DNA of 64,000 nucleotides, taken from the NCBI GenBank assembly GCA_963924555.1, contig OZ004596.1:868001-932000 (forward strand), written 5' to 3'. The number at the start of each line of letters is the position of its first letter. The first letter of the stretch is position 1. Made by a program: the position numbers and the translations under genes. Origin of the DNA: Crambe crambe. Lineage: Eukaryota; Porifera; Demospongiae; Poecilosclerida; Crambeidae. The notes under the pieces were generated by a model. That model made no database searches. It was not told the DNA's origin and saw nothing but the letters and a program-made list of their open reading frames with translations. Positions 1-63,601 of the stretch are shown here, in pieces.

Positions 1-387
1 GAATATGCTTCAGTAAGCTCAGTGAACTTTTGATGAGCATCAGGAGTGCCTTTGTTGCGGTCTGGGTGATATTTCATCGATAGCTTGTAGTAAGCTTGCT
101 TCACTTGCTGTTGGGTTGCTGCAGGTGACACACCAAGGACAGCATAGAGGTCCTTTGGTTTTTCTTTATGGATTCCTCTGTGACCTTTAGTGGAATACCA
201 GGATACAGGAGGACCTCTGTGACCTGATAGCAGAGGATTTCTAGGCTTTGTAGTGGTGGAGAGGGTCCTATAGTCCGGTTGATAGAGTAGTTTGGTTCCT
301 GGGCTGGAGGAAGAGCTGTAGCACTCAAGTATAAACCTCCGAGACGCTCCAAAACACTGTCTCCAGCTCCTGCCAAACATCGCCATC
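1..387 (-). CDS. DNAJC30: DNAJC30-like mitochondrial J-domain protein (N-terminal part, cut by window edge)
   Basis: Reading the minus strand from an ATG at 387 gives 129 residues without a stop up to base 1, so the C-terminus lies outside the window. The first about 20 residues (MAMFGRSWRQCFGASRRF) are basic and lack acids, like a mitochondrial presequence. A J domain starts near residue 90 (LYAVLGVSP), with helix II basic residues and the HPD motif in KYHPDRNKG, followed by FTELTEAYS. The spacing and wording of the J domain most resemble DNAJC30, an inner-membrane J-protein linked to ATP synthase and complex I repair in vertebrates. It lies head-to-head with BUD23, 110 bp apart, exactly as the human pair does. 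An alternative is another small mitochondrial J-protein; the J domain itself is certain. A longer open frame at 101-376 is an out-of-frame shadow. Confidence 0.85.
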
Positions 388-497
388 AGCCGCACTATAG
401 GTAACCACGCCTACCACAAATGAACTTTGAACTTCAGAAGTCACGTGGACAATCCGCTGACGGTGCACTTTTTTTTGCAGTCACCTCTTCAATATGC
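388..497. promoter_or_regulatory. Short divergent promoter between DNAJC30-like gene and BUD23
   Basis: Only 110 bp separate the two divergent start codons, so both genes must share a promoter or have overlapping ones. I see no TATA box or other decisive motif. The assignment rests on gene arrangement. Confidence 0.6.
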
Positions 498-3400
498 ATG
501 GCGTCGAAAAGGCCTGAACATCGAGCACCCCCAGAATTGGTAAGGATATGGACAACTCAAGCAATGCATATGTCACTGAATATTATTTTATTTAGTTTTA
601 CAACGATGAAGAAGCCAGGAAATACACTCAGAAGTGAGTGATATTTAGTAGCAAGCTACCTAGAGCTAGCAGTAGTTGTAGGTAAACCGAACTACTATAA
701 CTTCTCCACTGAGATAAACACTTATTATAAGCACATTTTGAGACGCCATCATGTCGACTACCCCTTCGTTAAAGAAACCTTCATTCCAATGCCCCTTTCA
801 GTGGCCACAAAACCAATACTGTCTCATCCTACGAGCAATACTGGTGATAATCGGTGGATTTCTAGTCCACCTATCCCTAGGAACTATTTACACTTTTGGA
901 AACATCTCTCCGTATATCGTGTCATATATTCGCAATCGTTCTCACCCTGCTGACTTTAGTCAGGCTACCTCTACCTGGGTCTTTGCATGTGCTCTTGTAG
1001 GACAGGGAGGATCCATGTTTGTTGGAGGTTGGATGGTGAAGAAAATTGGTCCCCGTTGGACAACTTTGATAGGTGGCTGGCTGATGAGTGTAGGAGTTGG
1101 TCTTTCGTATTTCACCATCAAAGTTTCTTTCTGGTTGCTACTAGTAACATATGGTCTATTATTTGGAGTGGGTGTGGGAATCGCTTACATAGGACCTCTC
1201 AACTCCGCCATGAACTGGATGCCAAAGTGGAAAGGCCTTGCTAATGGAATAGTCGTTGCTGGTTTTGGATTTGGAGCTTTTGTGTTTAATTATGTCCAAA
1301 CTTTTTTCATAAATCCTCACAACTTAGAGGTAGTGAAGGATGATCATGGAGATAAATACTTTACTGACCCAGAGTTAGTTAGTCGTGTTCCAATGGTGTT
1401 CATCATTTTGGCTGCCACTTATGCTGTGATGCAGCTGGTAGGGTCCTTACTCATCACCAACCCTCCAGACGGTTATGCTGACCAAGATTCTGATGAATCC
1501 CCTGACCTTCAACAGTCTGGGAATTATCGTGAAGTGGACGATAGTCATAGCATCAATACTAAGAAGTTGAAGCCCAAAGAGCAACAGGACTGCTCTAAGA
1601 CTAAAAATCTGGACTCGACTAGCCCTCCTGATTCACCAAAACACGGTCCTCAATTGAATGGATTTGCTAGTTACAATGAAGATTTGGAAGACCAGGAAGA
1701 CAGCGAGAGTATGGAACTGCTCAAGGAGAAGAGAACCGTCACCAAGTACTCTGATGAATCTGATAACAGCCGCAACAGCAGTCGTGTTGGTAGCCCAGAC
1801 TGGAATGATAAGTTAGAAAAGCAGTCAGTCACTTCAAGTGTGTCGTGGTCTAAGAATGTTATGACAAGCCTGAAACCTTCACAGGTCTTAAAGAAACCTA
1901 GTTTTTACCATTTATGGTGTATGTTCGCAACCAATGGCTTTGGTGTTATTCTCATTGCAACGCAATATAAAGCCTTTGGTCAAGATATCACACAGGATGA
2001 CCATTTTTTGGCTGTTGTGGGATCCGTAGCAGCTGTCTTTAACTTTGCTGGTCGAATTGTCTGGGGACTCATAGCCGACAAGATTTCTTATAAGTTTGCT
2101 CTTGTGCTTCTTTCTGGTATCATGACTATGTTTGGGCTTACTTTCTATGCTTGTTCAATGGGAGGTAAAGGCATGTTCTTTGTCTGGGTTTGTGTGTTGT
2201 TCTTCTGCATAGGGGGGAATTTCTCCCTCTTTCCAACAGCTATAGGACGAGCCTTTGGACTCCAGTACGTCGCAGTGAACTATGGCCTTTTATTCACGTC
2301 CCAAATCATCGCAGGTATGCTGGGTGCTTTCTTGTCTACCATCCTCCAAGCAAGGATCCAATTCTATGGCATTTTCTTCCTAGTGAGTGGCTTTGCCTTT
2401 GTAGGCTTCATCTTGGCTATTCTGTACAAGCCAAAACGATACATTTCCCTCCAGCCAAAATAGAACTAAAAATTAATTATAATAACTGTTGGTTGTAATA
2501 ATTATTTATCATTAGCTACCATAAAATTCACTGATTTTTGTAACACACCTTTCACTTGTAAGTCACCCAATGATAGAAAGTTTTGCGAATCTTGCTTCTA
2601 TTAAGTCAATACACTTAGGTTGCTATTTTGCTTATGTAAGATAAGATATGGGCTCTTACATTGAGCTTTCAGTGAGTGCACCACATTCTATAGAAAATGC
2701 ATCACTGTAACTCGAGGCATAGTTCTCTTCCTCATAGTAACCACAGGACTAAGTAACCTATAGTTAACAGTTTTTTTCACAGAGCTATTAGATTCTCATC
2801 TGATTGCTATTATTATAGCTAGTAAAGTTTTTCTTCTTCTTCACCATGTCATCAAAGTTTCGGTGCCCCAAGTTTCAATGTCCTTATTTTCCAAACCGTT
2901 TGCTCTATCTGCAAGGCATACTAGTGGTCCTTGGTGGGTTTATAGTCGAACTCACTACTGGATCTCTCTACACCTTTGGAAACATGGCTCCATATATCGT
3001 GTCGTACATCAGAAATCGCTCCTCCCCTGCTGACCTGCACCAGGATGAAACTCTAGCACTCTTTTCAGTTGTTATCATGGCTGAAGGGATGGGCAATATC
3101 CTCAGTGGTGTGATGTTGGCCAGAGTTGGTCCCCGTATGACTACCATTATAGGCAGTGTATTATTGAGTGCTGGTGTCAGTTTATCTTTCTTCACCATCA
3201 AATCCTCCTTCTGGGCACTCTTAGTGACTTACGGGATCATGTATGGATTGGGAGTGGGGATAAGTAGTATTCCACCCCTGGGCTCAGCTATGAGGTGGTT
3301 TCCAGAGTATAAGGGTGTTGTAGGTGGCATAGTGTCAGCTGGATATGGACTAAGCCCTTTGATATTTGACGTCTTGGAAACTGCGTACATTAATCCACGT

Positions 3401-6307
3401 GATGTGACCACAGTAATGGCAGATGGTGACAAGGCGAATTATTTCACTGATTCCAACCTGCTTGATCGCATTCCGTATGCTTTCCTCCTCCTTGCTGGCA
3501 TATATACTATCATGCAGTTCATAGGGTGTCTGTTCATTGATAATCCACCAAAAGGATACGCCAAAAGCCAACAAGATGAGCGCACAGTTGACTCCAGGAA
3601 TGTTCTGGAAGTAGATGATGATCCAGCTAAGAGGGAAAAATCACCATCCTTATTTTCAGCCATTGTGAAGTCGTTAACAAAGAGATATAAATCTCTATCT
3701 GTAGAGAAAAATCCATTTCATCATAATGGATCATCAAGTAGCACTAGAGGAGATGTAATGGACGTTAAACCATCTACTTCCAAGGAACACGAGAGAAAAG
3801 TGTTGTCTGAAGACATAGATAATGACAAACAATCATTGATATCCGCAGAATCTGGTGATGAGACACAACCATTCATCTCTAAAGGACAGTCTAGGAAAAG
3901 TGACGATCTTACCAACACAGAGCCTGTATCTGATGATGTCGGTACAACATGGACTTCTGATGACATCATCTCTCTAACACCTCTTCAGTCCCTCAAAATG
4001 CCATATTTCTATGTTCTCTGGGTGATAATGGATCTCGAACTTACCAGCACTCTCTTCCTTACGGCATATTACAAGTTCTTCGGTAACACGTTCATCAGAG
4101 ATGATAAATTTCTGGCCCTGGTGGGATCAATCTCTTTCTGCTTCAATGGTATTGGTCGAATTGCTTGGGGATTCTTAGCCGATTGGACAACATTCAAGTT
4201 AGCACTAATCCTCATTGCCACTGTCTTAACCATTTTCCAGCTTACTTTCTACGCCACCATTTCAGGAGGGAAGGCTATGTTCTTCATCTGGATCTGCACA
4301 ATGTTATTCAGTGTTGGTGGTGCATTTTCTCTATTTCCAAGTGTTCTGGGATACACTTACGGACTCAAACACGTCTCAATGAATTATGGTATTTTCACCA
4401 TTTCAAAGATAGTCAGCGCTCCATTTGTGGCTGTGATATCTGTTTTTCTTGTACCACATATAGGATTTTCAGGATTGTTTTTTCTGTCCAGTGCTTTCAG
4501 TGGAGTAGCTTTGGTCCTATCTCTTTTGTATAGACAGAAAGTTTATATTGCAGTGAATCGAGATAATTCATCCTAGTACTGTCTATAGCACTACTCCAAA
4601 CATCACAATACATTTATTTCATGCACATTTCTTATATAATATTGAGTGATATTGAGCTGCAAGGGAAACATATCTACTGTGTGTAGCTACAGCATTGTTG
4701 GAGTGTGTGATGAGTTTTGGTTATCTCTGGATAATTCTAGTTCTCGGATGATAGAGATTCAGATGCAAATGGCCGAGAGAGCCATTGAATTGTTGGCCCT
4801 GCCTGACGACTGCCCCTCCTACATCCTTGATGTGGGGTGAGTCTACTAGTAGGCTTCTTGACTGCCTTTAATACTTAACTAGCTACTAAACCAAATGGTG
4901 CACTTTTATTAGATGCGGTTCCGGACTTAGTGGACAGGCACTCACTGAAGCAGGTCATTACTGGGTTGGCGTGGACATTAGCAAGAGCATGCTAGGTCAG
5001 CTTCCCTCTATATTTGTTGTCATCTGTACATGTGCATGCCTGTCATCTGTACATGTCATGTCATCTGTACATGTACATGTTTGTCATCTGTACATGTACG
5101 TGTGTCATCTGTACATGTACATGTCACTGTACATATACATATTGTGTATGTACATCATACAGTGGGACCTCTCAATACACAGACGAGTTAGGACCGTCCG
5201 TTATAGAGAGGTGTCCTTTGCATAAATGCAGTTATCCTTTATTTGGAGGTTATCCTTTGTTCAGAGTATGGAAGTTTCACTGTATGTGAACATGCACACA
5301 CATGCACACACATGTTTGTGTTCTACACATTCCTCACAATTATAATGATATCTTGTGAGTGATCTTCCTTCTGCTTCAGCCGTGGCAAGGGAGAGAGAGG
5401 TGGAAGGTGACTTGTTTGTGTGGGATATGGGAGAAGGATTGGGATTTCGGCCAGGAACCTTTGATGGAGTGATTAGCATATCTGCACTCCAGTGGTTATG
5501 CAATGCGGACAGGAAAGACCACCACCCACCAAAACGACTTTACCACTTCTTCTCCTCTCTTTATGCAAGCATGGCAAGTCATAACAATAATAAAAACAAT
5601 AACAACTGGTCTTGTGAGCCAAAGCTTCACTTGATTAATTCTGTAGAGTCGTGGTGCCCGGGCTGTCTTCCAGTTTTATCCAGAAAATCCAGCTCAGATG
5701 GAACTGATTACCCAGCAGGCCATGAGGGCAGGTTTCACAGGGGGTGTGGTCATTGATTATCCCAACAGCTCTAAAGCCAAGAAGTAAAAAGAATTCAAAA
5801 TCATAAAGACTTGATTGAGAGTTGATTGCTTTGTGCTTGTAGGATATTTTTGTGCCTTTTTACTGGCGGTGCTCCAGCACAAATGCCTCAAGTAAGGGAA
5901 TATTCGTATTGTAGTTGTGAGTATCCCCTTTTCATATCCCTTTTAATAGAAAGGATGATGCTGGTCGTATTACATTGATTATACTTACTGTGCAGGGATT
6001 AGGGACTGAAACACAGGAATCTTCTTGCATTGATACACCTCGATTCACCACTAAAAGGTTAATGAAACCTGACATGTTAGCTAATAGTGAGCACTTATGG
6101 AATGTTGTATAGAAGAGGTCAGAAAAAGCAAAGAGTACCTGTTAAGAGTCGTGATTGGGTAGTGGCCAAGAAAGAGAGGATGAGAAAACAGGGGAAGTAA
6201 GTGCTGTGCTGAACATTTGTGTAGCCACTAATTTGAATTTTTAATTATGTAGAGAAGTGAGGTCTGACTCCAAATACACAGGACGAAAGAGAAAAACAAA
6301 ATTTTGA
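498..6307 (+). CDS. BUD23: BUD23 18S rRNA (guanine-N7) methyltransferase, split by a 4.1-kb intron that hosts two genes
   Basis: Ten exons close exactly to 279 residues (human 281): 498-539, 596-633, 4741-4836, 4913-4995, 5380-5573, 5647-5783, 5843-5891, 5996-6057, 6113-6196, 6253-6307. The enzyme methylates N7 of the 18S rRNA guanine in the P-site region, with TRMT112 as partner, during 40S maturation. The protein starts [14 protein letters not shown]. It carries the SAM-binding motif I (ILDVGCGSGLSG), then [40 protein letters not shown], and the family C-terminus [10 protein letters not shown]. Exon 5 ends in a GC donor (gcaagt at 5574), which is needed to keep the frame. Intron 2 (634-4740) contains two same-strand transporter genes; the phase-2 junction across it (AA|T) restores the expected NSRMIEIQ stretch, so the exons belong together. 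Confidence 0.93.
751..2463 (+). CDS. Major facilitator transporter, OFA/monocarboxylate-like, copy 1 (intronless, nested)
   Basis: One uninterrupted 570-residue frame from ATG 751. Hydrophobic segments suggest 12 membrane helices in two halves, separated by a long acidic and serine-rich cytoplasmic loop (about residues 245-370). Signature loops are present: [11 protein letters not shown] between helices 2 and 3, and [15 protein letters not shown] in the second half, the usual MFS motif-A position. The general pattern ([17 protein letters not shown], then [27 protein letters not shown]) resembles oxalate/formate-antiporter and monocarboxylate-transporter relatives. The substrate cannot be read from sequence; a small organic anion is a guess. 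It lies inside BUD23 intron 2 on the same strand and has a paralogue 380 bp downstream. It has no introns although its host and most neighbours have many. An ATTATAAG stretch about 25 bp upstream could act as a TATA-like element. Confidence 0.88.
   Translation: MSTTPSLKKPSFQCPFQWPQNQYCLILRAILVIIGGFLVHLSLGTIYTFGNISPYIVSYIRNRSHPADFSQATSTWVFACALVGQGGSMFVGGWMVKKIGPRWTTLIGGWLMSVGVGLSYFTIKVSFWLLLVTYGLLFGVGVGIAYIGPLNSAMNWMPKWKGLANGIVVAGFGFGAFVFNYVQTFFINPHNLEVVKDDHGDKYFTDPELVSRVPMVFIILAATYAVMQLVGSLLITNPPDGYADQDSDESPDLQQSGNYREVDDSHSINTKKLKPKEQQDCSKTKNLDSTSPPDSPKHGPQLNGFASYNEDLEDQEDSESMELLKEKRTVTKYSDESDNSRNSSRVGSPDWNDKLEKQSVTSSVSWSKNVMTSLKPSQVLKKPSFYHLWCMFATNGFGVILIATQYKAFGQDITQDDHFLAVVGSVAAVFNFAGRIVWGLIADKISYKFALVLLSGIMTMFGLTFYACSMGGKGMFFVWVCVLFFCIGGNFSLFPTAIGRAFGLQYVAVNYGLLFTSQIIAGMLGAFLSTILQARIQFYGIFFLVSGFAFVGFILAILYKPKRYISLQPK
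2464..2845. other. Spacer between the two nested transporter genes
   Basis: 382 bp of AT-rich DNA holding the 3' end of the first transporter gene and presumably the promoter of the second. I see no coding frame of note, no repeat array and no decisive promoter motif. Confidence 0.5.
2846..4576 (+). CDS. Major facilitator transporter, OFA/monocarboxylate-like, copy 2 (intronless, nested)
   Basis: A single 576-residue frame, clearly a tandem paralogue of the upstream gene. Shared stretches include [34 protein letters not shown] and [11 protein letters not shown] at matching positions. The layout is again 6+6 helices with a long variable charged central loop (about residues 245-385), which is the most diverged part. 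Conservation is concentrated in membrane helices, as expected if both copies are functional. It ends 164 bp before BUD23 exon 3, still inside the host intron. As for copy 1, substrate is unknown and intronlessness is notable: retroposition of an ancestor followed by tandem duplication, or horizontal acquisition, are both possible and neither is shown. Confidence 0.88.
   Translation: MSSKFRCPKFQCPYFPNRLLYLQGILVVLGGFIVELTTGSLYTFGNMAPYIVSYIRNRSSPADLHQDETLALFSVVIMAEGMGNILSGVMLARVGPRMTTIIGSVLLSAGVSLSFFTIKSSFWALLVTYGIMYGLGVGISSIPPLGSAMRWFPEYKGVVGGIVSAGYGLSPLIFDVLETAYINPRDVTTVMADGDKANYFTDSNLLDRIPYAFLLLAGIYTIMQFIGCLFIDNPPKGYAKSQQDERTVDSRNVLEVDDDPAKREKSPSLFSAIVKSLTKRYKSLSVEKNPFHHNGSSSSTRGDVMDVKPSTSKEHERKVLSEDIDNDKQSLISAESGDETQPFISKGQSRKSDDLTNTEPVSDDVGTTWTSDDIISLTPLQSLKMPYFYVLWVIMDLELTSTLFLTAYYKFFGNTFIRDDKFLALVGSISFCFNGIGRIAWGFLADWTTFKLALILIATVLTIFQLTFYATISGGKAMFFIWICTMLFSVGGAFSLFPSVLGYTYGLKHVSMNYGIFTISKIVSAPFVAVISVFLVPHIGFSGLFFLSSAFSGVALVLSLLYRQKVYIAVNRDNSS
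5025..5150. repeat. TGTACA-rich simple repeat in BUD23 intron 4
   Basis: Imperfect reiteration of catctgtacatgtacatgt within the intron between BUD23 exons 4 and 5. The alternating purine-pyrimidine, self-complementary unit can form hairpins. No gene function seen. Confidence 0.7.
5158..5284. mobile_element. Small inverted-repeat element (Tc1/pogo-type MITE candidate)
   Basis: About 127 bp bounded by TACAGTGGGACCTC at the left and the complement of TACAGTGAAACTTCC at the right, i.e. CAGTG-type ends next to a TA dinucleotide. There is no coding capacity. CAGT ends with TA target duplication are typical of Tc1/mariner/pogo MITEs. The terminal match is imperfect, so the call is tentative. Confidence 0.5.
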
Positions 6308-6473
6308 TTACTTATGCAATTATTATGGCAATTCATCCTCTAATTATGCGCATGCAATCAAAAGAAATATTGGGAAAATGAAGGAGGTGTGGTGTTGGCT
6401 TATTAGTACATAGATTATATGGTACCAGGAGTACGAGTTGGGTATTTGTCTTACAATCTCTAGTCAGTCTAGG

Positions 6474-7756
6474 ATGAGTAGCTCACAATCTTACCGGTCA
6501 GATAGGCGTAGGTCCATCAACGATATAGACTTACCTCCAAATGTCGTGAAGGGTCTCTCTATAGAAATGCTCAAAGAACTTAGTGCTCAAGATGAGGCCA
6601 CTTTTTACCAGTTCTTCGAGGGTCTGCAGCTGGAGGAGGTAAGTCGGTGTGTCTTTAGGTACAACCAAATAAACTGGCGAGTAACTTAGCTAAACAAGTA
6701 TTTCAAAGGGGAACTATCAATTTATAAATCATTCCTTATTCTGTCCATCTCAAAAGTTGTGGTGCATTAAAATTGTAGGTGAAGAAGGCACGAGAACGCT
6801 CTCAGCAGATACGGGAGGAAAACAAACTAATAGCTCTCAAAAATTTGGAGTTGAAACCAAAGTTTGAAGAGTTAAAGACCCAGCTGATTGAAAGAAGCAG
6901 TGTGTTGAGTTCATTGAAGGAGGAATATGATAAGGGAATTCTAGAGCTAAGTGAGTTGGTTATGTGTTATTTAATAATAATGTCTGTGATGTAATGTTGT
7001 AGGCATTCTATGACATCCTGACCTGACCACTAAGTAGCTGCACTCAGCCTTATTGTGGCTGAAGTGGGAGAATACTTTTCTCACTTTAGTAACCCATGCA
7101 CATGTGATGTTTTTTGTAGAGGGGATTCAGAATAAAACAAATCACCAGGCCATTGAAAAGGAACTGTCTCAAATTGCACGAAAGACGGAACAGGATTCCG
7201 AGGTAGTTATGGTCAGGAAGTTGGGGAGACTGGATACTAAAAACTTATTTTATTGTAGGATATGGCATCAGAGTTTATTGGTGGAAAATCTACTCTCAGT
7301 TTGGAAGATTTTCAGGAGGATTTTATCAAACAACGTACTTTATATTGGCTGCGTAGAGTGAAGTCAGAAAAGATGAAGGAGCTGCTTCAGAACTCTAGGC
7401 CTATTCCAGCTCCCAGAAAAGCTCATACCTCTGCTTCTGCTCTTCCCGCTGCTAATGTTGCCACTACCAACCCTCCACCTGTCCAATCTCTCCCCCCTCA
7501 GCATGCCCACCCATCTTCATCTCCAGGTTACCCTTCGGAACCTACTGCCTCCCTTCCTCCCTATCCTTCCCGTCCAGTTATGCCAATGCCACAGCAGCAG
7601 CACCAGGCTGGCCCTTTCCCTGCTGCAGCATATACATCTTACAGAAACCCTGCTCCCCCTGTTGCCAGGCCTCCAAGCAATCCTGTTCCCCCTGTCCCCA
7701 GACCACAACCTTATGGTGGCCATGGTTATAATAGATTCAATCAGCATAGATACTGA
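6474..7756 (+). CDS. VPS37: VPS37 subunit of ESCRT-I (B/C/D-type, proline-rich tail)
   Basis: Four exons (6474-6638, 6779-6950, 7120-7202, 7259-7756) close to 305 residues. The N-terminal two thirds is a helical Mod_r region rich in heptad-like charged residues (LKNLELKPKFEELKTQLIER, then IQNKTNHQAIEKELSQIA). It ends with FIGGKSTLSLEDFQEDFIKQR, YWLRRVKSEKMKELL, the conserved C-terminal Mod_r signature. After it comes an about 125-residue proline-rich tail, as in vertebrate VPS37B/C/D. VPS37 locks TSG101 and VPS28 in the ESCRT-I stalk for sorting ubiquitinated membrane cargo. An in-frame upstream ATG at 6438 would add 12 residues; 6474 is preferred because it directly precedes a typical polar N-terminus. 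It lies 166 bp downstream of BUD23. Confidence 0.9.
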
Positions 7757-7900
7757 AACTCATATATTTCTCTGCACGTGCACCATAATAATGCTTTGCT
7801 TCCTAAATTATTTTATTAGCTGATTTTATAGCCTTAATTATTAATTTTGATGTGTTTGTTTATTTGATGTGCTGCATTTCGCGCGTGCGCCATATGTTGG

Positions 7901-7908
7901 TGACGTCA
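7901..7908. promoter_or_regulatory. Perfect CRE palindrome in the CFAP251 promoter
   Basis: TGACGTCA lies 74 bp upstream of the CFAP251 start codon. It is preceded by a GCGCGTGCGC stretch (NRF1-like) and followed by GTTGTCTTGGAGAT, an imperfect X-box-like site that would fit RFX control of a ciliary gene. Function is inferred from motif only. Confidence 0.5.
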
Positions 7909-7981
7909 TCAATTGGTTGTCTTGGAGATACTGTGCTCTTGCAAACAAAGAAGGTGCGCTTCAAAAAAAATTCGATGTGAG

Positions 7982-10900
7982 ATGGAGGAAGAGGAAGATA
8001 AGACTAACAGTGTGGAAAAGCCACAGGCTGAGGATTTCACGGTGTCGAAAAGCCAGGAAGAAGATTTCAAAGCCTCAAATGCTTCACAGCAAGAAAAGTC
8101 GTCGGAAGAGAATGGACAGAATGATCAGTCTCCGATTACCTCCAAACCCACAGCAGTACCTGCTGCTGCACCAGTACATCCTAGTTCCAAAGTGGAAACT
8201 GCATCTCCTAATGATGCTTTCAAAAATGACCAGGAGGACCAAACCTTTCATCACCCTCTAGTAAGTTTCTGTGGAACACAGCAGTTCGACCTGCTGGCCT
8301 GCAGAGTATAGTTTACTGGACCTGGCCACTGTTCTTTTGTCCTAAATACAGTCACTGAATTGGTGTTTTGGTTATAATTCGGACCTTCCAGTGCACAATA
8401 TATCAGAAGGAAATCGAAAGGTGCTTGGCATACTTCCAATATTTAAATTTAACTAGCTATTTTTTTGTACAGATGATATTCTATGTGTGTGCTCACACTG
8501 GAGTGTTGCTTGACATTGCCAGCAATGAGCAGTGTCTCCTGCAAGGACATAACAATCCCATCTCCTGTACAGCAGTCAGCTCTGATCGACGCTGGCTCGC
8601 CACAGCTGACTGTGGCAGGGATTGTGTTCTCATCATTTGGGATTCATTCTCTGGGTATTATAAATGACTTTACTTTCCACACTAGCCAGAATCTCTATGT
8701 TGACTCCTTGATAATAATTCTCAATGTCCAAAGGATTCCCAAAATTCAATACAAAATTATTATCTTTTTAGTGTTCCTGTACGGACCATGTTCGATGGAT
8801 TGGGGAAGGGCACAGCAGCTGTTGCATTTTCATCCAATTCACAATTCTTAGCCACCATCAGTGCTGACCCAATACAAGTGAGAGCTTGACAGCCAATAAC
8901 TTCAATAACTTCTTCCCTCTTTGTAGGTGATAAGTGTGTGGGAATGGACAATAGAATCGGAGAAGCCACTCTGCCAAGTATCTCTTACTGAAGATTACAC
9001 CTATCAGGCATATCTGACTTTCCACTATGATGATCACTATCAGTTGGTCTCCAATAGTGAAGACTTGGTTATCTTTTACCACTGGGTATTAACTATTACA
9101 ATTACTACTTCGTAAGCTCATTTGTCATACCAAATGTATCAATTTGATTCTTGCAGAAGGACGAGTTCAAATATCATGCTCATCCTGTATTGGACAAGGT
9201 TAGCAAAATATTGCTTTGATTGTGGAAGCTAGCTGAATGATTTTATATGCCATCATAGGACTTTAACAAGACCATTGGGGTGTTTTCTGAGACAGTGTTC
9301 GTACCAGGTTCCACAATTGGGATCACAGGCACTGCTGAAGGTCATGGCATTGTGTGGCAAACTGTTGATGGTGATTTTTACCACCGTACATGAATGTCAT
9401 ATTATTTGGTACATGCACTGCAGGAGAAGGTAAGGAACCACATATCAAGAAAGGCATCAAGCTGATGAGAATGCATGATTCTCCGATAACAGTTGTTACT
9501 TCTACATCTGAGTAAGCTCCCATTATCATCAAGGAGAATTGCATGTTAAAACTGTGCTATGCGTTATCAGAATGGTGGTTACTGGGGATACAGAGGGAAA
9601 AATAAAGTTTTTTGATAGTGAACTGAAGCTGTTAAATTGGTATGAAGACACAATGAAGTATGGAACTCTCTGCTCCATATCCTTTTCCTATTCACCCAAT
9701 CTCTCCTTGATAATGTCTGCATATCACTCTGGGAAAAGGTAGGCTAACTCCGTGTGAACGTGTTACCACCATGGTGTGTACATGTCCAAACAGTAGCTGC
9801 CAAAAAAAAAAAAAAAAAAAATGTGACACTTTCTTTATGATAATATTACCAGTAGATGATAATATTATTATTTTAATAGTGGTGTAGATGTGTTGGGTGA
9901 ACATTACTACCCTTCAGAGTCCACTAAGGCAGCCACTCCTTTTATCATTCCCAATTTTACTATCAGTACTACTTCTGCCTCTGTGGCACACATTACAGCA
10001 AATGGATCTGTCGTTGAGGTGAGATGATCAGTGAAAGTAGTAAGTTTTCCTCCAGTAGTAAGAAGCATTATCCAGCCTCCTTAATTACTGGGTAGAACCC
10101 TGGTCGCAATGGTCATTATCCAGCCTCCTTAATTACTGGGTAGAACCCTGGTCACAATGGTCATTATCCAGCCTCCTTAATTACTGGGTAGAGCCCTGGT
10201 CACAATGTAATTTCTTCCTAGCTTTTGCTGAGTGAACACGATGCTGCTGTGAATGCTCTAGCTACTCACCCTCACCTCCCACGTATTCTCATCAGCAGCT
10301 ACTCCTGCAAAGTAAAACTGTGGGACTATGAAACAAGGTGAAAATGTCATCAAGTAAAAAAAGAATGATATACATTATTCCTCCCTTCTTTATTTCACAT
10401 GTGATTAACAGGACTGTGTTGGGTAGTAGAGAGTTTAGTGAACCTAACTATATCCAGTGTGTCTGTTTTGATCCCAAAGGAGAATTCATAAGTGAGTTTT
10501 TGGAAGAACTTACAACCCAGTATTATTATTTAAACATGCACTAAGGTATTGGATTCACCAACGGCACTTTACAAGTGCTAGATGCCATCACCCTCGAAGA
10601 TGCCTGCAATCCATTTCGCTTCTCCAGAGATGCAGTGACTCACATTGCTTTCTCTCATGACTCAGCACTCATGGCAACTGCTGTAAGTCAGGCAGGCTCC
10701 TGGTAGATCTGTATAACTCAGTTGTGGTGCAATTGACTCGCATTTGTAGGACCTTGATAAATGTGTGTCAGTGTATGTTTCTCAGCAAGAAGAGAATGCT
10801 GAAGCTCCCTGGTACTTCCTGGCAAAATACCGTTCACACTACAAGAAGATAGAAGGTGGGGGATATTGGCAAGGGGTAGATGTAGTATACTAACTTCACC

Positions 10901-12856
10901 TTTTCCCTCTCATGCAGGTCTTTTATTTGGTGTGAAGTTAGATAGTCAAGACCACAGACTTCTATCTCTGGGGAGTGATAGAACATTGGTAATTTATAGG
11001 GGTGGTTAATTAACATCTTAATAGAGAAACTTGACTGTCAATTTGTCAAATTCCTTACCTTGCAATTGACACAGGTGGAGTATGATCTGGTCAATAGTGG
11101 AAGTGATAACTTGCATCTTCTGTCTTCTCATCGGCTGGAACAGAGTGCTATTCCCACTGCCTTTGTGTGGTATCCCCCTCTGACCAAAGAGTCGTTCTTT
11201 CTGCTTGTTAATGACCAGGTGATTGCAGTCGGGGGTTCACTCATGGGAAAGACACTATAATAAGTTTAAAATAATGATGTTTCCAACTCAGTACAAGATT
11301 AAACTTTACAATGCAACAACTAAGATGTGCAGAAAGACCTTGCTAGGCCCCACTTATGGTTCACCACTGAAAAAGTAAGTATATAATAATGCTTAGCTAT
11401 TATTGTGTGATGACCAATGGATTATCACTTTCAGAATCTTGGTACTCCCGGCCCCAATTGTGAAGGAGTCAAAGAGTCCTGTTGAATTGAGGCGTTATAT
11501 GGCCTACTGCACTAAAAACAAGGTACTGTAGTGAGCAAGTGGATTCTATACAGGTCAAATTATTGATCTCCAGGTTGGTCTGCTCCTACTTCCACATGAT
11601 GGCAATCCACATAACTCAAGGTGCATGATGGCACATCCAGGGAAGGTAGGAAGTATAATAATTATGGGGAGAACTCTCAATTATGATGTGTTCATGATAC
11701 AGGTAGCTGATATGACATGTTCCTTTGATGGAAAGTACTTGTTCACTGCTGGAGGGGAAGACTACACAGTCAATATGTGGACCATCAATACAGAGTACAA
11801 CTCCATATACTTTATAATCAGTTAGTTTTAAACTTTACTTTTGTGTTCAGTGCTCTTGAAGCAGCCTCTCACCTTGGAGGTGAAGATCTCGAGCCCTTTT
11901 ATGCAATGCTGGAAGGAGGGCGGGATGGGGAGTTCTATGCTGAACTTGAAGAGTATTTTTACTATGCTCAAATTCGAAAGTATGATTGTGATTTCCGAAT
12001 ACATGAATAGAGGTCCATATTTATTTTGTTATAATCCAGTCGAGGACCAAATGTTACCACCACCAGACACATCTCCGTCAACATCCCTACAGAGGAGATC
12101 CCTAATGTCATGAGAGCGATAGGCTTTTACCCATCTGAACAAGAGGTGATTAGATTTTTTTGTTTTTATGGTTATCAAATTTAGCTATTCATTTCAAGTT
12201 TACTAAAATAGATGTCAACGTTCTTTCGTTTGTAGATTGAAGACATGCTGAATGAAGTGAAATTCAGTAAATATGTGGATACTGATACTTATGTCACTGA
12301 AATAGACTTGGAGGATTTCATTCGATGTTAGTCCCACATTCAGAACAATGGTGCCATGCTCTCTGGAATAACTATTTTGGATACATGTCTCAAAGAGTGC
12401 AGAGTGCATGGATCCAGTGATAGTTTTTTATAGTGATCTATTCTCTCTACCTGTATCTTTCTCCAGTGTATATTAATCATCGTCCAGTGTTTGGCCTCTC
12501 ACCCCTCCAGATAGGCCATGCTTTCAAGACCCTAGGAAATAGATTGGAAGATGAGAAATACTGGTCTATTCAAAAGCCCAAACTGTTCTCCCTCCTACAA
12601 GAAAAAGGTGATAATGTGGTAACACACCTCCTAAAATATGAAACGCCTTCATCATGAATATGATTATTATTATTTAGGGGAGCATTTAACAGAAACAGAG
12701 GTAGTGGAGTATCTGATGACTCTGATGGGCCATTCTGACAATCCTGAGGTGGAAGGATCCTTTGTTGAAGACACAATGACTGCTCTCAGACAAATTCCCG
12801 AAAGAATATCAGCACCTATGTTTGCTGAAGAAATTATTGGCCTCAGTACACAATAA
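7982..12856 (+). CDS. CFAP251: CFAP251 (WDR66) axonemal WD-repeat protein
   Basis: Twenty-five exons close to 992 residues: 7982-8260, 8352-8420, 8473-8654, 8772-8877, 8927-9085, 9157-9198, 9259-9370, 9424-9511, 9571-9738, 9880-10018, 10222-10337, 10412-10491, 10546-10682, 10750-10855, 10918-10988, 11075-11218, 11292-11374, 11435-11522, 11574-11645, 11703-11794, 11851-11979, 12040-12145, 12236-12326, 12467-12607, 12678-12856. An acidic, low-complexity head of about 93 residues precedes [13 protein letters not shown] and a double WD-repeat propeller region. Landmarks are [50 protein letters not shown] and [17 protein letters not shown]. The C-terminal calmodulin-like part has [21 protein letters not shown] and [13 protein letters not shown]. 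In cilia the protein sits in the calmodulin- and spoke-associated complex at the base of radial spoke 3. Start chosen at the first ATG not followed by a stop. Confidence 0.95.
10066..10207. repeat. Three tandem 48-bp copies in a CFAP251 intron
   Basis: Three nearly identical 48-bp units, beginning cattatccagcctcctt and containing gggtagaaccctggtc, fill the intron between exons 10 and 11. No coding role. Confidence 0.85.
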
Positions 12857-13003
12857 TTCTCATATCAATAGCAATTCAGCTTAGACTTCAACCCTGAAAA
12901 TGACACAAAGTTATAATTAATACAGTACAGCACGCAAAGAGGTTAATTAATATGTGTACACATTTACATTCTTTCAGAACCAAATCAGCTGTTAAAGTCC
13001 TTA

Positions 13004-13043
13004 TGCGCATGCGTATCCTTCTCCCGCCATCAGATTGGCGGGA
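13004..13043. promoter_or_regulatory. NRF1-like site and inverted pair of E2F sites before the F-box gene
   Basis: TGCGCATGCG at 13004-13013 matches the NRF1 palindrome. TCCCGCCA at 13022-13029 and TGGCGGGA at 13036-13043 form an 8-bp inverted pair 6 bp apart; the right half reads TTGGCGGGAA, a full E2F consensus. The pair lies about 70 bp upstream of the start codon, consistent with G1/S-phase transcription. Confidence 0.6.
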
Positions 13044-13111
13044 AAGAAGGCGGGGGCCTTCATACAGAGTGAGAGTCGTTTGCAACTAGGTAGTTAGTTG
13101 GAGCAGTCGAG

Positions 13112-14188
13112 ATGTATCCTTCATCCGCGTTTACAGTCAAATATTCACCGGTTCTGGTAGTCTCTGGCAGCAAATCACCGGAGGAGGAAAACTTTTCTCG
13201 ACAGCCAGAAGAAAGAAGTGGTGGGCATGGGTTTGTCTTCCAACCCTCTTTTACACACTATCAAGTCCCCAGATCCTTTATTTTATCTCCTACCTCCATG
13301 CCAAGGAGATCTACTTCACCCGCAACTGCCATTACGCTGTTCCCAACCAATGGAAGAAACGGTTTGAGTTCGTCCTGGCTTCAAGAACTATCTGATTCAT
13401 TTAACTTCGATCTCTTGACCCATCTTCCTCCAGAAATTAGCGTGAAAGTGTTGATGTATCTACACCCTCAGGATATCTGCAAGTGAGTCAGCTAGCTAGA
13501 TAACTAGCCAGGTAGGTTTAATACTGGTAGGTTGCCTAAGTAGACCTGGTTGGCAGGTAGGCAACTGCATTATATCTATGCTCGCTCTGGCTTATAATTA
13601 GGTATGTAGGTGGCTCTATAGCCAGCTAAAGTAGCTATTGTGTTGTGTGACATATTTCAAATTTTTCTTCTTCTTCTAGTGCATCACTTGTGTGTAGCAG
13701 GTGGCATCAATTAACACGATACAAAAAGCTCAACAAGAGAAGGAAAGTTTATGTACAAGAGCAACGTAAAGAATACAGAGAATATAAGGTAGGTGTGCCT
13801 CCTTTGAAAAAAACATTGTATTTATCTGCTAAAAAAATTTATTTAATAGGAAAATTATACACCAGCAAATTATAATCAAGTACCACGTCATATGACTAAA
13901 GCCCCCAGTCCTCTTAGTATCATACAACCAACCAATCCCACCAATGACCGAGTGGTCACCTCCCCACAAAGCCACACCCCTAGCCCCACCTTCTTAGTGG
14001 ATGGTGTGAACAAGTTATCACTGGAGGATCAGCAAGATGGGACCATACGACGCTGTCTCTTTCCTGATCTTATCCTCTCGCCCGATGGTAGTGGGAAGAA
14101 AAAACAGCTGGCCTTCTCCACCAGACACACAATGATCAAAGAAGTTGCAGGGAAAAAAATGAACAAAAACCGCCTTAGAAGATTGTGA
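13112..14188 (+). CDS. F-box protein with Emi-type LRRL tail (FBXO5/FBXO43-like, no zinc-binding region)
   Basis: Three exons (13112-13482, 13680-13788, 13850-14188) close to 272 residues. The first 100 residues are polar with S/T-P sites. An F-box follows at about 102-145 (LPPEISVKVLMYLHPQDICN, then VCSRWHQL), predicting SKP1 binding. Next come a basic stretch and a proline/serine-rich part. RRCLF at 227-231 fits an RxL cyclin-docking or D-box-like motif. The last residues are KNRLRRL, the same tail type with which Emi1/Emi2 bind and inhibit the APC/C. Emi1 and Emi2 also have a cysteine-rich zinc-binding region between F-box and tail; here that interval has a single cysteine, so the region is absent. 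E2F-like sites lie just upstream, as expected for an Emi1-type gene. An unrelated F-box protein with a chance tail remains possible. Confidence 0.7.
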
Positions 14189-14411
14189 CCAAAACCTTCC
14201 AGAATAGTATGTTCAAACAGACTGTGTGTATGTAATATACAAGAGAAAAGCAGCAGAGGAAAATCTTAGTGTTTCTTTTTATAGAAATTTGTATTTAGCA
14301 GGTCAAGAAGTAGAAGTGTAAAATCATAATTATTATTTATTATGCAGAAATTATTATTGTGATATTAATTTTGTTTCATCATAATGATTTTTGTCATAAA
14401 ATGTTTTTATT
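14189..14411. other. Convergent 3' spacer between F-box gene and TBL3
   Basis: 223 bp, AT-rich, between two stop codons facing each other. It should hold both poly(A) regions. No other feature seen. Confidence 0.6.
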
Positions 14412-16568
14412 CTACTGTGACTCGACTCTCTTCGTTTTTGGAAAGAAAGAGCTGCTGGTGTGGAGAGACATCACTGCTCTCTTCTTGGCTAGCAACTGTT
14501 TCTTATGCTTCTTCAATTTCTCTCTCACTTTTTGCTTTCTCTTCTTAAAGTGTCTGGACTAGAAAAGAAGGGTTTATGTAGAGAGAAATCATTTTTTGAA
14601 AAAATCAGGGGAATAGAGGATTTGTGTGTAACTTATGATCGAGGTGGGCATAACAAAGAAAACTTGGTCAATGAAAATATGGGAATATGGCAGTAGTATG
14701 GTCAGCATAAAGGAGAAGACCACCATTGAGTCTTATAAAGGATGTGGACCATAAAGATCCACACTTCAAACTACTTAGGGACAGTCACGATTGAATCAGC
14801 TGTGAAGCTGGAAAGGTGCTAAATAAAATAAGTTGTTAAAACAAGTGTTTATGCAGGATTCAAAAATTATTACACCTCTGGGAAATGTCTTATAGCTCCT
14901 CGTGCAATTAATTATGCAAAGAGCATAAAGAGTCCATACAGTGTGCACTGGGAAAGGGAATCCCCCTTTTAAATTAAAATGGGGTAAACCCATCAATTAT
15001 AGTAACAATTAATCATTACCTCTTTCTCATCATTGCCGATGTCAGTAGTTGATGTCACATGATCCAATTCAGAGTGAGTGCAAGCCACATGAGAACTGTC
15101 AGGAAATTGCCGTTCAGCTCCATCTATTAATTGGAGGTCAGAGGATAAACACAGCCCAAGGCCATTATTTCAACTTCTAGGCACCAACTGTCATTTAATA
15201 TTTAACAACTTTGGGTGATTATTATAATCAGCCATTCCACAGAGGGTTATCTTCATCTGATAATAGCTACTTATGATCGATTATTCCATTATTAGCAGGT
15301 ATCGTACATGTTGTCCAATTTAAAGTCATTACCAGCTGCTTCAGAGGTGGTCGATGAGTCAGCAGTTGCAACCAGAGTGTTTGGAGACTGAGCGCTTGTT
15401 TCCATGGGAACTGGTTCACTAATGGAAGTGGGCAAACTGGGCAACTTCATACATTGTGCTGTATACTCCACAAATTTTGATAGCTGGAAACAATATGGAA
15501 GGATTGATAACTTAAGTCAGTGGTAGGTCTTGAAAAATCTCACCTGTTGCAAGCGAAGAACCCTCTGAAAATGTCTCTCAGTATAAGAGATGAGGTTCTC
15601 TAGAACTGGCTTTAAGTCATCCATTTTGAGCAATTCTTCGTGTGAGTATTTCTTCAAGATCACTGTCAACACACTCTGAGCAACACGGCAGTGACGTGCA
15701 TTCTGGTTCCACCTACTTGCATGCTTCAGAATGGAATCTGAATAGGATTGGAAAGTCCACTAGTTAGATCATCCCAAACTTACATAGTAGAGGCACTTAC
15801 GGATCTGATCTTCCCTCAAACTGTGTATGACCTCAGTGAACTCACCATCTATTCCACCATTCTCCAGCAATTCTAAAGAAGAACAAACTTTTAAGTAACG
15901 TTTCTGGCCATTTCAGTTCAAGGTGACTGGTGACTGGTAACACACACAATACCTTGCAGAATAGTGCGAGTTCTGAATGGCTGGTCAAGAGTTAGAGCCA
16001 CACCTACTGCCTTCACATAGTTCTTCTGGTGTAAGAAATTGGAGAGGTCTTGCTCACGAAGCAGCTGCAACTCTCTCTCTGCATTGGCCTGGCATTCCTC
16101 TTCCTCACTTACATCCTAATCAAATACAAAAGCTTGTTGGACCTAACCTCTATTGCAGAGGGGTCTAATTAATAGGGGGTCTCAAATTAGTTACGAACCC
16201 TCCAGAGACAGATGACAGAATCAGCGCCTCCAGAGACTAGCACTTCTCCATCGGAGGAGGTGGCTAGAGACCATATCTTCTCTGTGTGTTCATCCATAGT
16301 GGCCACACACTCATTTGTCTTGATCGTCCACAGCTTCACAAGACCATCACTTCCACTACAACACAAATAGAGAGAAGTAAGACTACCATTATCTTGGTTA
16401 CCCACAAGTCTACTCTATAGAATGTACCTTGAGGCTATCTGCATGCCTTTTGTGAGGAAGATTGCTTTGAGGACTGAGTTGGTGTGACCTTCAAAGGTCT
16501 TTATGCATGTAAAGTCTCTGAGGGCCCACAACTTCAGAGTGGCATCACCAGATGCTGTTAATAAACAC

Positions 16569-16652
<84 letters not shown>

Positions 16653-19154
16653 GCCTTCCTCCAAACTTGTATGGGAAAATACCTGGTCTACAGGTGAGAA
16701 CTTAACACTCCAAATCCCTCTTTTGTGACCACAGAAAGTTCCAAGAAGGTTTCCATCTGACGCTTGCCATAGCTGAAGGAAATTAATTGCAGAATCAGTT
16801 TTTTTCTACTTTCCAACCTTGTTGTCATTCCATCACCTTGGCAGTCTTATCCTGAGAGCCTGTAGCCACCAGCTTATCATTGGGCGACACATCCAAAGAA
16901 TTGATATCCTGGTGGTGGTGAAGAACACAGTATAATTGTGATAGGCAGTAATGGATGAGTAATTACCTTGTCATGGGCCAATTGAGTGTACTTCACCTTC
17001 AACTTCATCACATCGCCCTTTTGCGAGCCCTTTATCATACCCCTTGCACTCCACATTTTCAGCGTACAATCCTGACCAGCACTCACAACAAAATTTCCTT
17101 TCACTCTACAAAAAAGTCATTAAAACATGTTAAAAAAAAAAAAAAAAGGTTCCCATTTCCTCCCTATTTCGTTATACCTTGCTACAACCACAGCTCCAAC
17201 TGCATGGGTATGGCCTGTTCCCACACCAACACATTCAAATTGATTAGAAGATTTTTTGAGTCTCCATAGTCGGATAGTATTATCCTTTGAGCTGGTGGCT
17301 AGTACGGTGCCATCTGGACTGCAGTCAAGGGACAAGACTATTCCTGTGTGTCCTGTCAGCAGATGACAGCTGAAAGAACTCTTTTCAAACACTTTGACTT
17401 GTTCGCTATTTGTGGCCACTGCAAGCAGTTCATTTGACTCGCCAACAAAACGCATGTCCAAAATCTCATCCAGGTACCCTATAAACTGAAAGATGGCCAG
17501 GGCAAAATACTCGGTAAGCCATTCATGAAATAAATGGATACATGAATTGCCTCTTCCCTTCCCTCCTTTCTCACTTGTTTTTGTATTTGAAAAAACTGTG
17601 TATCCAAGAAGGTTATGTTATGGTCATAAGTGACAGCTGCTATCATCTTAAGGGACTGGCTATGAAGGAGACCAACATAAGTGCTAGGGGTTGTCGTCAT
17701 CTCCCTCTCCTCTCCTTCCGTCTCTTCGCATTCCTGAAGGTCATGTGACTTGGCGAGGGGTTCTAGTGAGTGCAGTGGGTGTGGCTTGTCAGTACTCCAC
17801 ACTTGGATAACACCCTTGCTACCAGCAGTTGCAAACAAAATGGGTGAATATTGAGAGGTTTTCGTTGTAGCTTCATTAGTATCAAGTGCTTGCTTAATTG
17901 GACCATTCTGTTCTTGTAGCATGCTTGGTAGCACCACCAAACCTTCCAAAGACTGAAAAAGAAATGGTTAATTTCAGGAGTGGATAGTGTCACTCCTTCT
18001 AATAATTTACCTCAAATACAGGGATGGTCTTGATTGTAGTGCCAGTCTCCAAGTCCCACACATGAATCACCTGATCACGACCACCACTAGAGAAGTTGAA
18101 AAGAATCACTCGAAAGAACAAATGCTTCTAGTTATAAGTCTCCTGAACTCTCACATTTATTACCGTATATTAATTCTTCAAAATCCATGAAAATTTCCCA
18201 CTAATACAGTGATACCTACCTCAATAGAGTCTGGCCATCTTCAGAAAACCCAAGGCAAGTGATAGCACTCACATGGTTGGAAAGAATCTGTACACATCTG
18301 TGGAAACCAAAATTTATCCCCTTACAATAATTAATTTTTCTGAACTCACTCGCTTGAGGTGAGGTCCCAAACTCTGATATTACAATCTGCTGAGCTGGTG
18401 AAAAGGTGGAGAGTGCTCCGATCAGGATGAAACCTGACCAGATTCACGACACCTTTGCACCCACGAAAGTTATGAGTGCAATACTGCTTCTCACAGTCCC
18501 ACACTTTCACTATGCTATCACTGGACCCTACAATAACAACAACAACAACAACAACAATAACAGGAAACAATAAACACAAACAAACTAAAGTCTCTGGGAA
18601 TCAAATAATACCTGTAGCTAGTAATGTCGACGAAGCATCAAAAGCCATAGACATTACTGGTCCAATATGACCCTGCAAATATGGTAAGGTATAGTCAAGG
18701 CAAAAAGCTCATATTGATTGTACCTTCCATGAGCGAATGCATTTCTCAGTTTTCCAATGGTACTGCTTCAATAGGAGAGACCTCCAGCCCACAACAAGCC
18801 ACTCTCCATCGTCACTTGCAGTGAAACATGTCACATGATCTTCTTCCTATGTCGATGCAGGTATTATGTTCAGAGCTACATACGGTCATTAATGACCACC
18901 TCTTCCACAGAATACTCCACTCTTCCAGTGCTACAGGACACAACCTTCACTGCATTGCTACATGTTGTGAAGATGTGTTGACCATCTCCAGAGAATTGCA
19001 CAGGTCCCCCACTGTAAAATGCTCCCAACTTGTCTTCAGCTTTGAAACTATCAATTGAATCTACACCTTAAGGTAATGAGATTTCAAGGAAAACATACTT
19101 GGTTTTGAGCTTAACTATTTCACCAGAAGATATCTTGATACTTTTAGACATCAT
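14412..19154 (-). CDS. TBL3: TBL3/UTP13, WD-repeat subunit of the UTP-B complex (SSU processome)
   Basis: Twenty exons close to 944 residues: 19099-19154, 18900-19047, 18724-18846, 18612-18672, 18350-18527, 18220-18297, 18011-18086, 17575-17952, 17178-17485, 16967-17105, 16837-16908, 16683-16772, 16428-16567, 16199-16355, 15953-16115, 15801-15872, 15544-15737, 15333-15483, 15020-15123, 14412-14558. Two WD propellers are obvious (VKVWDCEKQYCTHNFRG, HTGIVLSLDCSPDGTVLATS, DKLVATGSQDKTAK, GSDGLVKLWTIKTNECV). The C-terminal Utp13 helical domain follows (FLHQKNYVKAVGVALTLD to YTERHFQRVLRLQQ). It nucleates pre-rRNA processing at the U3 snoRNP. Exon 2 may instead end at 18884, paired with a shifted next acceptor (adds four residues). 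The last exon adds a 48-residue lysine/arginine-rich tail, nucleolar in character, not found in human TBL3 as I remember it. Confidence 0.93.
14559..15019. other. Last intron of TBL3
   Basis: 461 bp of AT-rich DNA between the two 3'-most TBL3 coding exons. I see no repeat array or nested gene; small open frames here look like chance. Confidence 0.5.
16572..16649. repeat. (GA)n microsatellite in a TBL3 intron
   Basis: About 78 bp of pure GA dinucleotides directly adjoining the polypyrimidine tract (on the minus strand) of the TBL3 exon ending at 16567. On the gene's sense strand it reads (CT)n and may serve as an extended pyrimidine tract. Confidence 0.95.
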
Positions 19155-19307
19155 TGCATTAAGTACACGTGGGTCAGTCTGACGTAGACGACCCTTTACC
19201 ATGAAGGATCGCCACGTTTTGTTTACCTGGATGACGTCATGCCCGCCGAGGCCATGCGTATGGAAACGCCCACTTCTTTGTTTATTTTCTAGCTATTGCC
19301 ATACATC
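19155..19307. promoter_or_regulatory. Divergent TBL3/TBCK promoter with perfect CRE
   Basis: 153 bp between two divergent start codons. It contains the full CRE palindrome TGACGTCA at 19232-19239 and GC-richer DNA than its surroundings, with no obvious TATA box. A shared housekeeping-type promoter is inferred. Confidence 0.65.

Positions 19308-35068: not shown

Positions 35069-63601
<28,533 letters not shown>

Follow-up and report, generated by a model that had tools for sequence, protein, structure and literature searches.

DNAJC30, BUD23 and VPS37 as neighbours in the sponge Crambe crambe, in a segment matching human 7q11.23 and 12q24

Gene models at the locus

The region considered here is a 64,000-nucleotide stretch of the genome of the demosponge Crambe crambe (contig OZ004596.1, hereafter C19, positions 868001-932000, within a 143 Mb genome of 119 contigs), referred to below as the window; negative positions lie upstream of its first base. 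At its left edge three genes stand side by side, DNAJC30 on the minus strand and BUD23 and VPS37 on the plus strand, forming a neighbourhood that resembles the human Williams-Beuren region at 7q11.23 and that probably predates the divergence of sponges from the remaining animals. A sequence-only reading of the window had proposed this trio, with DNAJC30 and BUD23 head-to-head and 110 bp apart. All three genes were spliced as expected and the head-to-head arrangement was borne out, although the measured interval is 111 bp. Because the window edge cuts exon 1, that reading had seen only the first part of DNAJC30; extension past base 1 recovered the complete gene, which ends upstream of the window at -457 (C19:867543).

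The trio was spliced by hand from bases 1-9000 and the upstream flank, and the resulting models contain no internal stops. Other gene models over C19:818001-952000 are rough and setting-dependent, with some neighbours fused, and serve for orientation only; the names given to them come from domain or PDB-chain matches. The principal features of the window are as follows.

1..386, minus strand: DNAJC30 exon 1, the part inside the window (gene model; J domain; PDB 2yua; family alignment)
387..497, no strand: interval of 111 bp between the divergent DNAJC30 and BUD23 start codons, a candidate shared promoter
498..6307, plus strand: BUD23, rRNA methyltransferase family, ten exons (gene model; Pfam WBS_methylT and Methyltransf families)
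751..2463, plus strand: major facilitator superfamily (MFS) transporter open reading frame (ORF) 1, single exon, 570 amino acids, in BUD23 intron 2 (MFS_1, 139.9 bits)
2846..4576, plus strand: MFS transporter ORF 2, single exon, 576 amino acids, in BUD23 intron 2 (MFS_1, 62.4 bits)
6474..7756, plus strand: VPS37 of B/C/D type, subunit of endosomal sorting complex required for transport I, four exons (gene model; Mod_r)
7982..14321, plus strand: CFAP251 (WDR66), ciliary WD40 protein, approximate model (PDB chains named CFAP251)
14771..19367, minus strand: TBL3/UTP13-like WD40 protein, approximate model, outside the membership of the human block (PDB 7mq8_LR, Transducin beta-like protein 3, 592.2 bits)

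Identity of the three genes

The minus-strand gene encodes 249 amino acids from a start codon at 386, in two exons (386 to -83 and -178 to -457) separated by a single intron of 94 bp. Its J domain (PF00226, 82.2 bits, residues 79-141) carries the HPD motif at 107-109, and the N-terminal 75 residues resemble, by eye, a transit peptide. The top PDB chain is 2yua, the J domain of WBSCR18, the former name of DNAJC30 (66.3 bits); DNAJA3 and DNAJB9 follow at 61.6 bits. This margin of 4.7 bits is small, and the remainder of the protein was therefore also used. The FDFDxFYxxHYG stretch at the C-terminus of DNAJC30 is present in the gene model, whose tail reads FDFDEFYRAHYGDALKR and continues into a hydrophobic stretch, judged by eye to be a single hydrophobic helix. 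In a search of 5.8 billion proteins, the motif [FY][DN]F[DE]xFYxxHY recurred in 60 of the 120 matches listed (the best 120 of 122). Both matches named DnaJ family protein C protein 30 carry it; the 41 lowest-ranking ones (P0080-P0120) all lack it. The 60-residue tail has a single match in the sponge genome, and scanning viral and prokaryote contig collections for stray eukaryote copies of the DNAJC30-BUD23 pair gave 19 loci, none carrying the tail motif.

A FastTree phylogeny of J domains (128 leaves, about 65 positions) gathers the sponge protein, human 2yua and all 57 motif-bearing rows used into one 77-leaf clade with support of 0.875, the remaining 18 leaves of which are rows of 142-183 amino acids without the motif, possibly partial. 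Database rows numbered 116 of 119 (P0002-P0120), the three removed by the length/HPD filter all being motif-bearing; the seven sponge J paralogues used, taken from eight retrieved out of 52 PF00226 genome matches (some of them weak), all fall outside the clade. The tree thus groups the J-protein with human 2yua; grouping with a different family, which the sequence-only reading had named as fatal to its proposal, is not what it shows. Other J families were ruled out for this gene by PDB ranking, tail motif and tree, and on the same three lines the J-protein is assigned as the DNAJC30 orthologue, an orthology that we regard as settled. That it belongs instead to another family, for example of DNAJA3 or DNAJB type, with the likeness to 7q11.23 accidental, is hardly credible: the gap of only 5 bits between the DNAJC30 and DNAJA3 J-domain scores and the shortness of the tree alignment speak for it, but the motif's absence from the lowest-ranking matches, its presence in both matches named DNAJC30 and the topology of the tree all contradict it. 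Elsewhere in the genome, four J-domain exons with identical scores lie on contig C1 (8222176, 8369958, 8810655 and 9150714), which suggests recent dispersed duplication.

BUD23 encodes 279 amino acids in ten exons (498-539, 596-633, 4741-4836, 4913-4995, 5380-5573, 5647-5783, 5843-5891, 5996-6057, 6113-6196 and 6253-6307), with one intron of GC-AG type (5574-5646). The protein combines an S-adenosylmethionine methyltransferase core with a C-terminal WBS_methylT domain (73.9 bits, Pfam); since the latter has a single match genome-wide, a second BUD23 copy was rejected. Scans of viral and prokaryote contigs with BUD23 returned no eukaryote locus; the sole methyltransferase match was weak and came from an Acidimicrobiaceae bin. 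Intron 2 (634-4740) spans 4107 nt, against 55-384 nt for the other eight introns, and most of it is filled by the two same-strand, single-exon MFS transporter ORFs. The nearest structures to ORF 1 are an oxalate:formate antiporter (93.2 bits) and an L-lactate transporter (69.7 bits), both bacterial; its match to monocarboxylate transporter 8 (MCT8) is weak, at 22 bits. These nested ORFs may have originated by horizontal transfer or as a retrocopy, or may represent an old family.

VPS37 encodes 305 amino acids in exons 6474-6638, 6779-6950, 7120-7202 and 7259-7756. Mod_r (81 bits) is the sole Pfam family found, an N-terminal UEV domain being absent, and the tail appears proline-rich by eye. In PDB it matches VPS37B alone (24.1 bits), and a protein-database search gave three matches, none of them named. 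By domain content the sponge protein is classed as VPS37 of B/C/D type, with no specific assignment to D; the three vertebrate forms B, C and D are presumably duplicates that arose within vertebrates. A second VPS37 copy was rejected on the single genome match to Mod_r (28 bits), in an exon-by-exon search that could miss a divergent VPS37A.

One sponge segment and two human regions

The block is larger than the sequence-only reading saw, as HIP1, CFAP251, ORAI and Mondo (MLXIPL/MLXIP) are also present, and this single sponge segment matches both the 7q11.23 and the 12q24 regions of human. Over C19:818001-952000 the genes flanking those listed above are, from left to right:

-49.4 to -45.7 kb, minus strand: TRAFD1-like gene (TRAFD1/XAF1 zinc finger, 33.1 bits)
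-43.0 to -39.4 kb, plus strand: HIP1 (I_LWEQ, 181.3 bits; best genome match C19:828050)
after HIP1, plus strand: RIMBP-like gene (RIMBP2 Ig domain, 48.2 bits)
after the RIMBP-like gene: subtilisin-type protease (by eye)
after the protease: long helix-turn-helix gene (by eye)
RUN and Rab-binding-domain gene, SGSM-like (RUN, 43.9 bits; PH_RBD, 80.9 bits)
between the SGSM-like and CDIPT-like genes: weakly supported models, then a minus-strand gene without a name
from -1.65 kb, plus strand: CDP-alcohol phosphatidyltransferase, CDIPT-like (CDP-OH_P_transf, 39 bits), followed downstream by DNAJC30, BUD23, VPS37, CFAP251 (plus) and TBL3 (minus)
after TBL3, plus strand: TBCK-like gene (by eye)
after the TBCK-like gene, minus strand: ryanodine-receptor-like gene (by eye)
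between the ryanodine-receptor-like gene and ORAI: transposase-like ORF (by eye)
C19:942264-942737, window position about 74.3 kb, plus strand: ORAI calcium-channel gene (Orai-1 family, 87.8 bits; one genome match)
between ORAI and Mondo, plus strand: SPATA22-like gene (by eye, without Pfam match)
C19:944283-949099, window 76283-81099, minus strand: Mondo (ChREBP/MondoA; named protein matches; HLH, 49.1 bits)
after Mondo, minus strand: sodium/calcium exchanger, SLC8B1-like (Na_Ca_ex, 89.8 bits)

Mondo lies about 12 kb past the right end of the window and about 1.5 kb from ORAI. Its bHLH (basic helix-loop-helix) region gives MAX-type matches only in PDB, at most 25.7 bits, so its identity rests on named protein matches: among the best 120 of 455, the best named ones are ChREBP of Geodia barretti (62%) and an Ephydatia muelleri protein (58%), equalled or bettered by five matches without a name and followed by coral, lamprey, mollusc, fish and bird proteins, many named MLXIPL/ChREBP. 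For CFAP251 the PDB chains of that name, 8j07_d2 and 9d2f_K, score 484.5 and 478.5 bits; the chain ranking first, 9fqr_Xj (492.6 bits), bears the label Adenylate kinase 7.

DNAJC30 and BUD23 are immediate head-to-head neighbours in the sponge as in 7q11.23, where DNAJC30 is on the minus strand and BUD23 on the plus strand. This pair is the sole immediate adjacency demonstrably common to sponge and human. VPS37 and Mondo also belong to the block in both species, and a syntaxin and BCL7 share its chromosome. The sponge differs from the 7q11.23 core in that VPS37 follows BUD23 and does not adjoin DNAJC30, Mondo lies about 69-72 kb from VPS37 and not beside it, BAZ1 is on another chromosome, and the block adds ORAI and CFAP251, with HIP1 about 40 kb from DNAJC30. 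A GRCh38 gene list from a case table gives FKBP6, FZD9, BAZ1B, BCL7B, TBL2, MLXIPL, VPS37D, DNAJC30, BUD23 and STX1A (PMC10502022), and a mouse table, said to follow genomic position, agrees with the human order VPS37D-DNAJC30-BUD23 (PMC13076566). The proposed likeness to the Williams-Beuren locus therefore stands as far as VPS37D, DNAJC30 and BUD23 are neighbours in the human and mouse lists, and fails for gene order, with VPS37 on the other side.

With 12q24.31 the sponge shares ORAI, CFAP251, Mondo, HIP1 and VPS37, here within about 125 kb, and TMEM120, SETD1 and BCL7 on the same chromosome as the block. A 12q24 deletion list comprises ORAI1, MORN3, TMEM120B, RHOF, SETD1B, HPD, PSMD9, CFAP251 (printed CFAF251), BCL7A and MLXIP (printed MLIP) and, further along, HIP1R, VPS37B and ABCB9; it differs in order from the sponge and is without DNAJC30 or BUD23 (PMC11867633).

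Linkage beyond the block was assessed with seven families hand-picked, in three rounds, from the human regions. All genome matches lie on C19 for BCL7 (2/2), TMEM120 (4/4), SETD1 N-SET (1/1) and ORAI (1/1), and the best match does so for syntaxin and for the I_LWEQ domain of HIP1. Six of the seven families thus have their best match on C19, which makes up 4.6% of the genome (binomial 6e-8 under random placement); in contrast, only 1 of the 52 J-domain matches lies there. Two layers are apparent, a chromosome-wide linkage and a tighter local gene set: HIP1 (47 kb), ORAI (67 kb) and Mondo (about 69-72 kb) lie close to VPS37, and syntaxin, TMEM120, BCL7 and SETD1 are 2.4-5.2 Mb from it. Of the four genes listed as directly flanking human VPS37D and VPS37B, three (MLXIPL, DNAJC30 and HIP1R) have relatives within 80 kb of sponge VPS37. 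Were genes placed at random along C19, the probability of this would be about 6e-5, in a comparison that excludes the fourth gene, ABCB9, and the genes flanking VPS37C. Of the 15 I_LWEQ matches, two are on C19 and 13 on C10, where they spread across 1.9 Mb (C10:157798-2067727), several with identical scores; these are probably talin-like.

Three further features of the sequence may be recorded. Window 20113-23860 consists of a C/T-rich 30-bp unit repeated in tandem over 3.7 kb, with several reading frames open on each strand; a GA dinucleotide array of about 500 bp (37384-37882) lies close to the ryanodine-receptor-like gene's 3' end; and a plus-strand histone H3 ORF (63945-64355, by eye) lies near the 5' end of that minus-strand gene and crosses the right end of the window.

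Probable descent and retention of the neighbourhood

The explanation that we hold with considerable confidence is that the neighbourhood was inherited from the common animal ancestor, duplicated in vertebrates, and held together by linkage and by the divergent interval. Of this, the gene identities, adjacency, spacing and chromosome linkage are observed; inheritance of the adjacency from one ancestor, duplication in vertebrates, sharing of a promoter and the action of selection are inferred. Duplication would have left one vertebrate copy at 7q11.23 (MLXIPL, VPS37D, DNAJC30, BUD23) and another at 12q24.31 (ORAI1, CFAP251, MLXIP, HIP1R, VPS37B), each retaining part of the set, and the sponge would have kept the set on one chromosome, with HIP1, DNAJC30, BUD23, CFAP251, ORAI and Mondo within about 75 kb of VPS37. 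The block is probably preserved by two influences: a chromosome that behaves as an ancestral linkage group, in which genes stay together with their order free, and the DNAJC30-BUD23 interval.

Ancient animal microsynteny is a known phenomenon, of which the sponge DNAJC30-BUD23 locus is a new and strong instance. Ancient metazoan microsyntenic pairs, reportedly described by Irimia et al. in 2012, resemble it in that gene adjacency is kept between sponge and vertebrates; the present case differs in being a divergent pair of genes of housekeeping type. In Amphimedon, 80 microsyntenic units had been reported earlier and 60 were confirmed as unambiguous (PMC5429095). Animal ancestral linkage groups (PMC10232365) likewise keep orthologues on one chromosome across phyla but ignore order, whereas the sponge locus also keeps local proximity. 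Among the matches listed from open-licence literature, no title or opening of an abstract dealt with the DNAJC30-BUD23 pair, with a promoter common to the two genes or with ancient synteny at the locus; the main texts of PMC8851819 and PMC10719294 make no mention of VPS37, DNAJC30 or BUD23, and that of PMC2670823 none of WBSCR22, WBSCR18 or DNAJ.

Several observations weigh against inheritance of the neighbourhood or against a special role of its interval. The comparison sets one sponge genome, and no other early animal, beside published human and mouse gene lists; the 80-kb radius was set with the data already in view and the families were hand-picked, choices on which the probabilities given above depend. 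The trio is not collinear (DNAJC30-BUD23-VPS37 in the sponge, VPS37D-DNAJC30-BUD23 in human), and with syntaxin, TMEM120, BCL7 and SETD1 2.4-5.2 Mb from VPS37, a large part of the human block lies scattered in the sponge. BAZ1 (WAC), from the same human core, has its one genome match on C13, where syntaxin has its second match. The next upstream pair, formed by the minus-strand gene without a name and the CDIPT-like gene, is also head-to-head, with 122 bp between start codons (window -1775 and -1652), and PMC5429095 calls such gene pairs common in Amphimedon. Homogenates of Bud23+/- mouse hearts showed no significant respiratory difference (PMC10298715). Divergent pairs being ordinary here, the evidence lies in the adjacency and orientation adds little. 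As VPS37 stands on opposite sides, at least one rearrangement separates sponge and human, and if human VPS37D lies on the plus strand, a single inversion would not suffice.

The interval itself (387-497, 47% GC) contains five CpG and one CACGTG box, at 442, a sequence that occurs 13 times in the 134 kb examined, or about once per 10 kb, and is presumably recognised by several bHLH-zip factors (with a leucine zipper), Mondo-MLX included; the box may offer a lead, and only a lead, toward Mondo-MLX control. To judge from its spacing, the interval may act as a bidirectional promoter, and it probably holds the pair, since a break would leave at least one of the two without its promoter. The link of both products to mitochondrial respiration in mouse makes joint control plausible: mitochondrial function is impaired there when DNAJC30 is lost, or when heart muscle cells lose BUD23 (PMC10298715). 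Granted common descent, there is a nearly even prospect that the pair was kept passively, the short interval being unbreakable without harm and common regulation unneeded. Passive retention accounts for the pair as well as joint control does; with 111 bp here and 122 bp in the adjacent pair, tight divergent packing needs no special reason, although the respiratory role of both products in mouse would favour joint control.

A genomic regulatory block, in which enhancers of regulated genes, Mondo or ORAI for example, lie within neighbouring genes and fix these as bystanders, is an unlikely reason for retention, again given common descent. The unusual length of BUD23 intron 2 among the nine introns would fit such a block, but the two transporter ORFs occupy most of that intron, and DNAJC30, BUD23 and VPS37 are genes of housekeeping type. 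Unlikely too is a bolder scenario, in which the animal ancestor had a compact Mondo-ORAI-CFAP251-VPS37-BUD23-DNAJC30-HIP1 cluster of which Williams-Beuren syndrome deletes one remnant. The divergent promoter of DNAJC30 and BUD23 would there have linked the modification of ribosomes with ATP synthesis in mitochondria, close to Mondo, a factor that senses energy; were the scenario true, the CACGTG box would let Mondo-MLX act on DNAJC30-BUD23. We judge it improbable, finally, that chromosome-scale linkage alone was inherited and that the close adjacency of DNAJC30, BUD23 and VPS37 arose separately in sponge and vertebrate by shuffling within a conserved chromosome. Gene order plays no part in how animal linkage groups are defined (PMC10232365), sea anemones show poor microsynteny (PMC10719294), and the differing side of VPS37 and the dispersal of BCL7, syntaxin, TMEM120 and SETD1 along C19 point the same way; against it stand the clustering of the MLXIPL, DNAJC30 and HIP1R relatives around VPS37, with the radius chosen afterwards, and the immediate adjacency of DNAJC30 and BUD23 in both sponge and human.

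If the neighbourhood was indeed inherited from the common animal ancestor, the surroundings of a well-known human microdeletion would date from before sponges parted from other animals, and the sponge would offer an undivided segment against which 7q11.23 and 12q24.31 become readable as two partly emptied copies. The locus also makes a question testable: whether the interval between DNAJC30 and BUD23 is kept for the shared control of two genes serving respiration, or is merely unbreakable.

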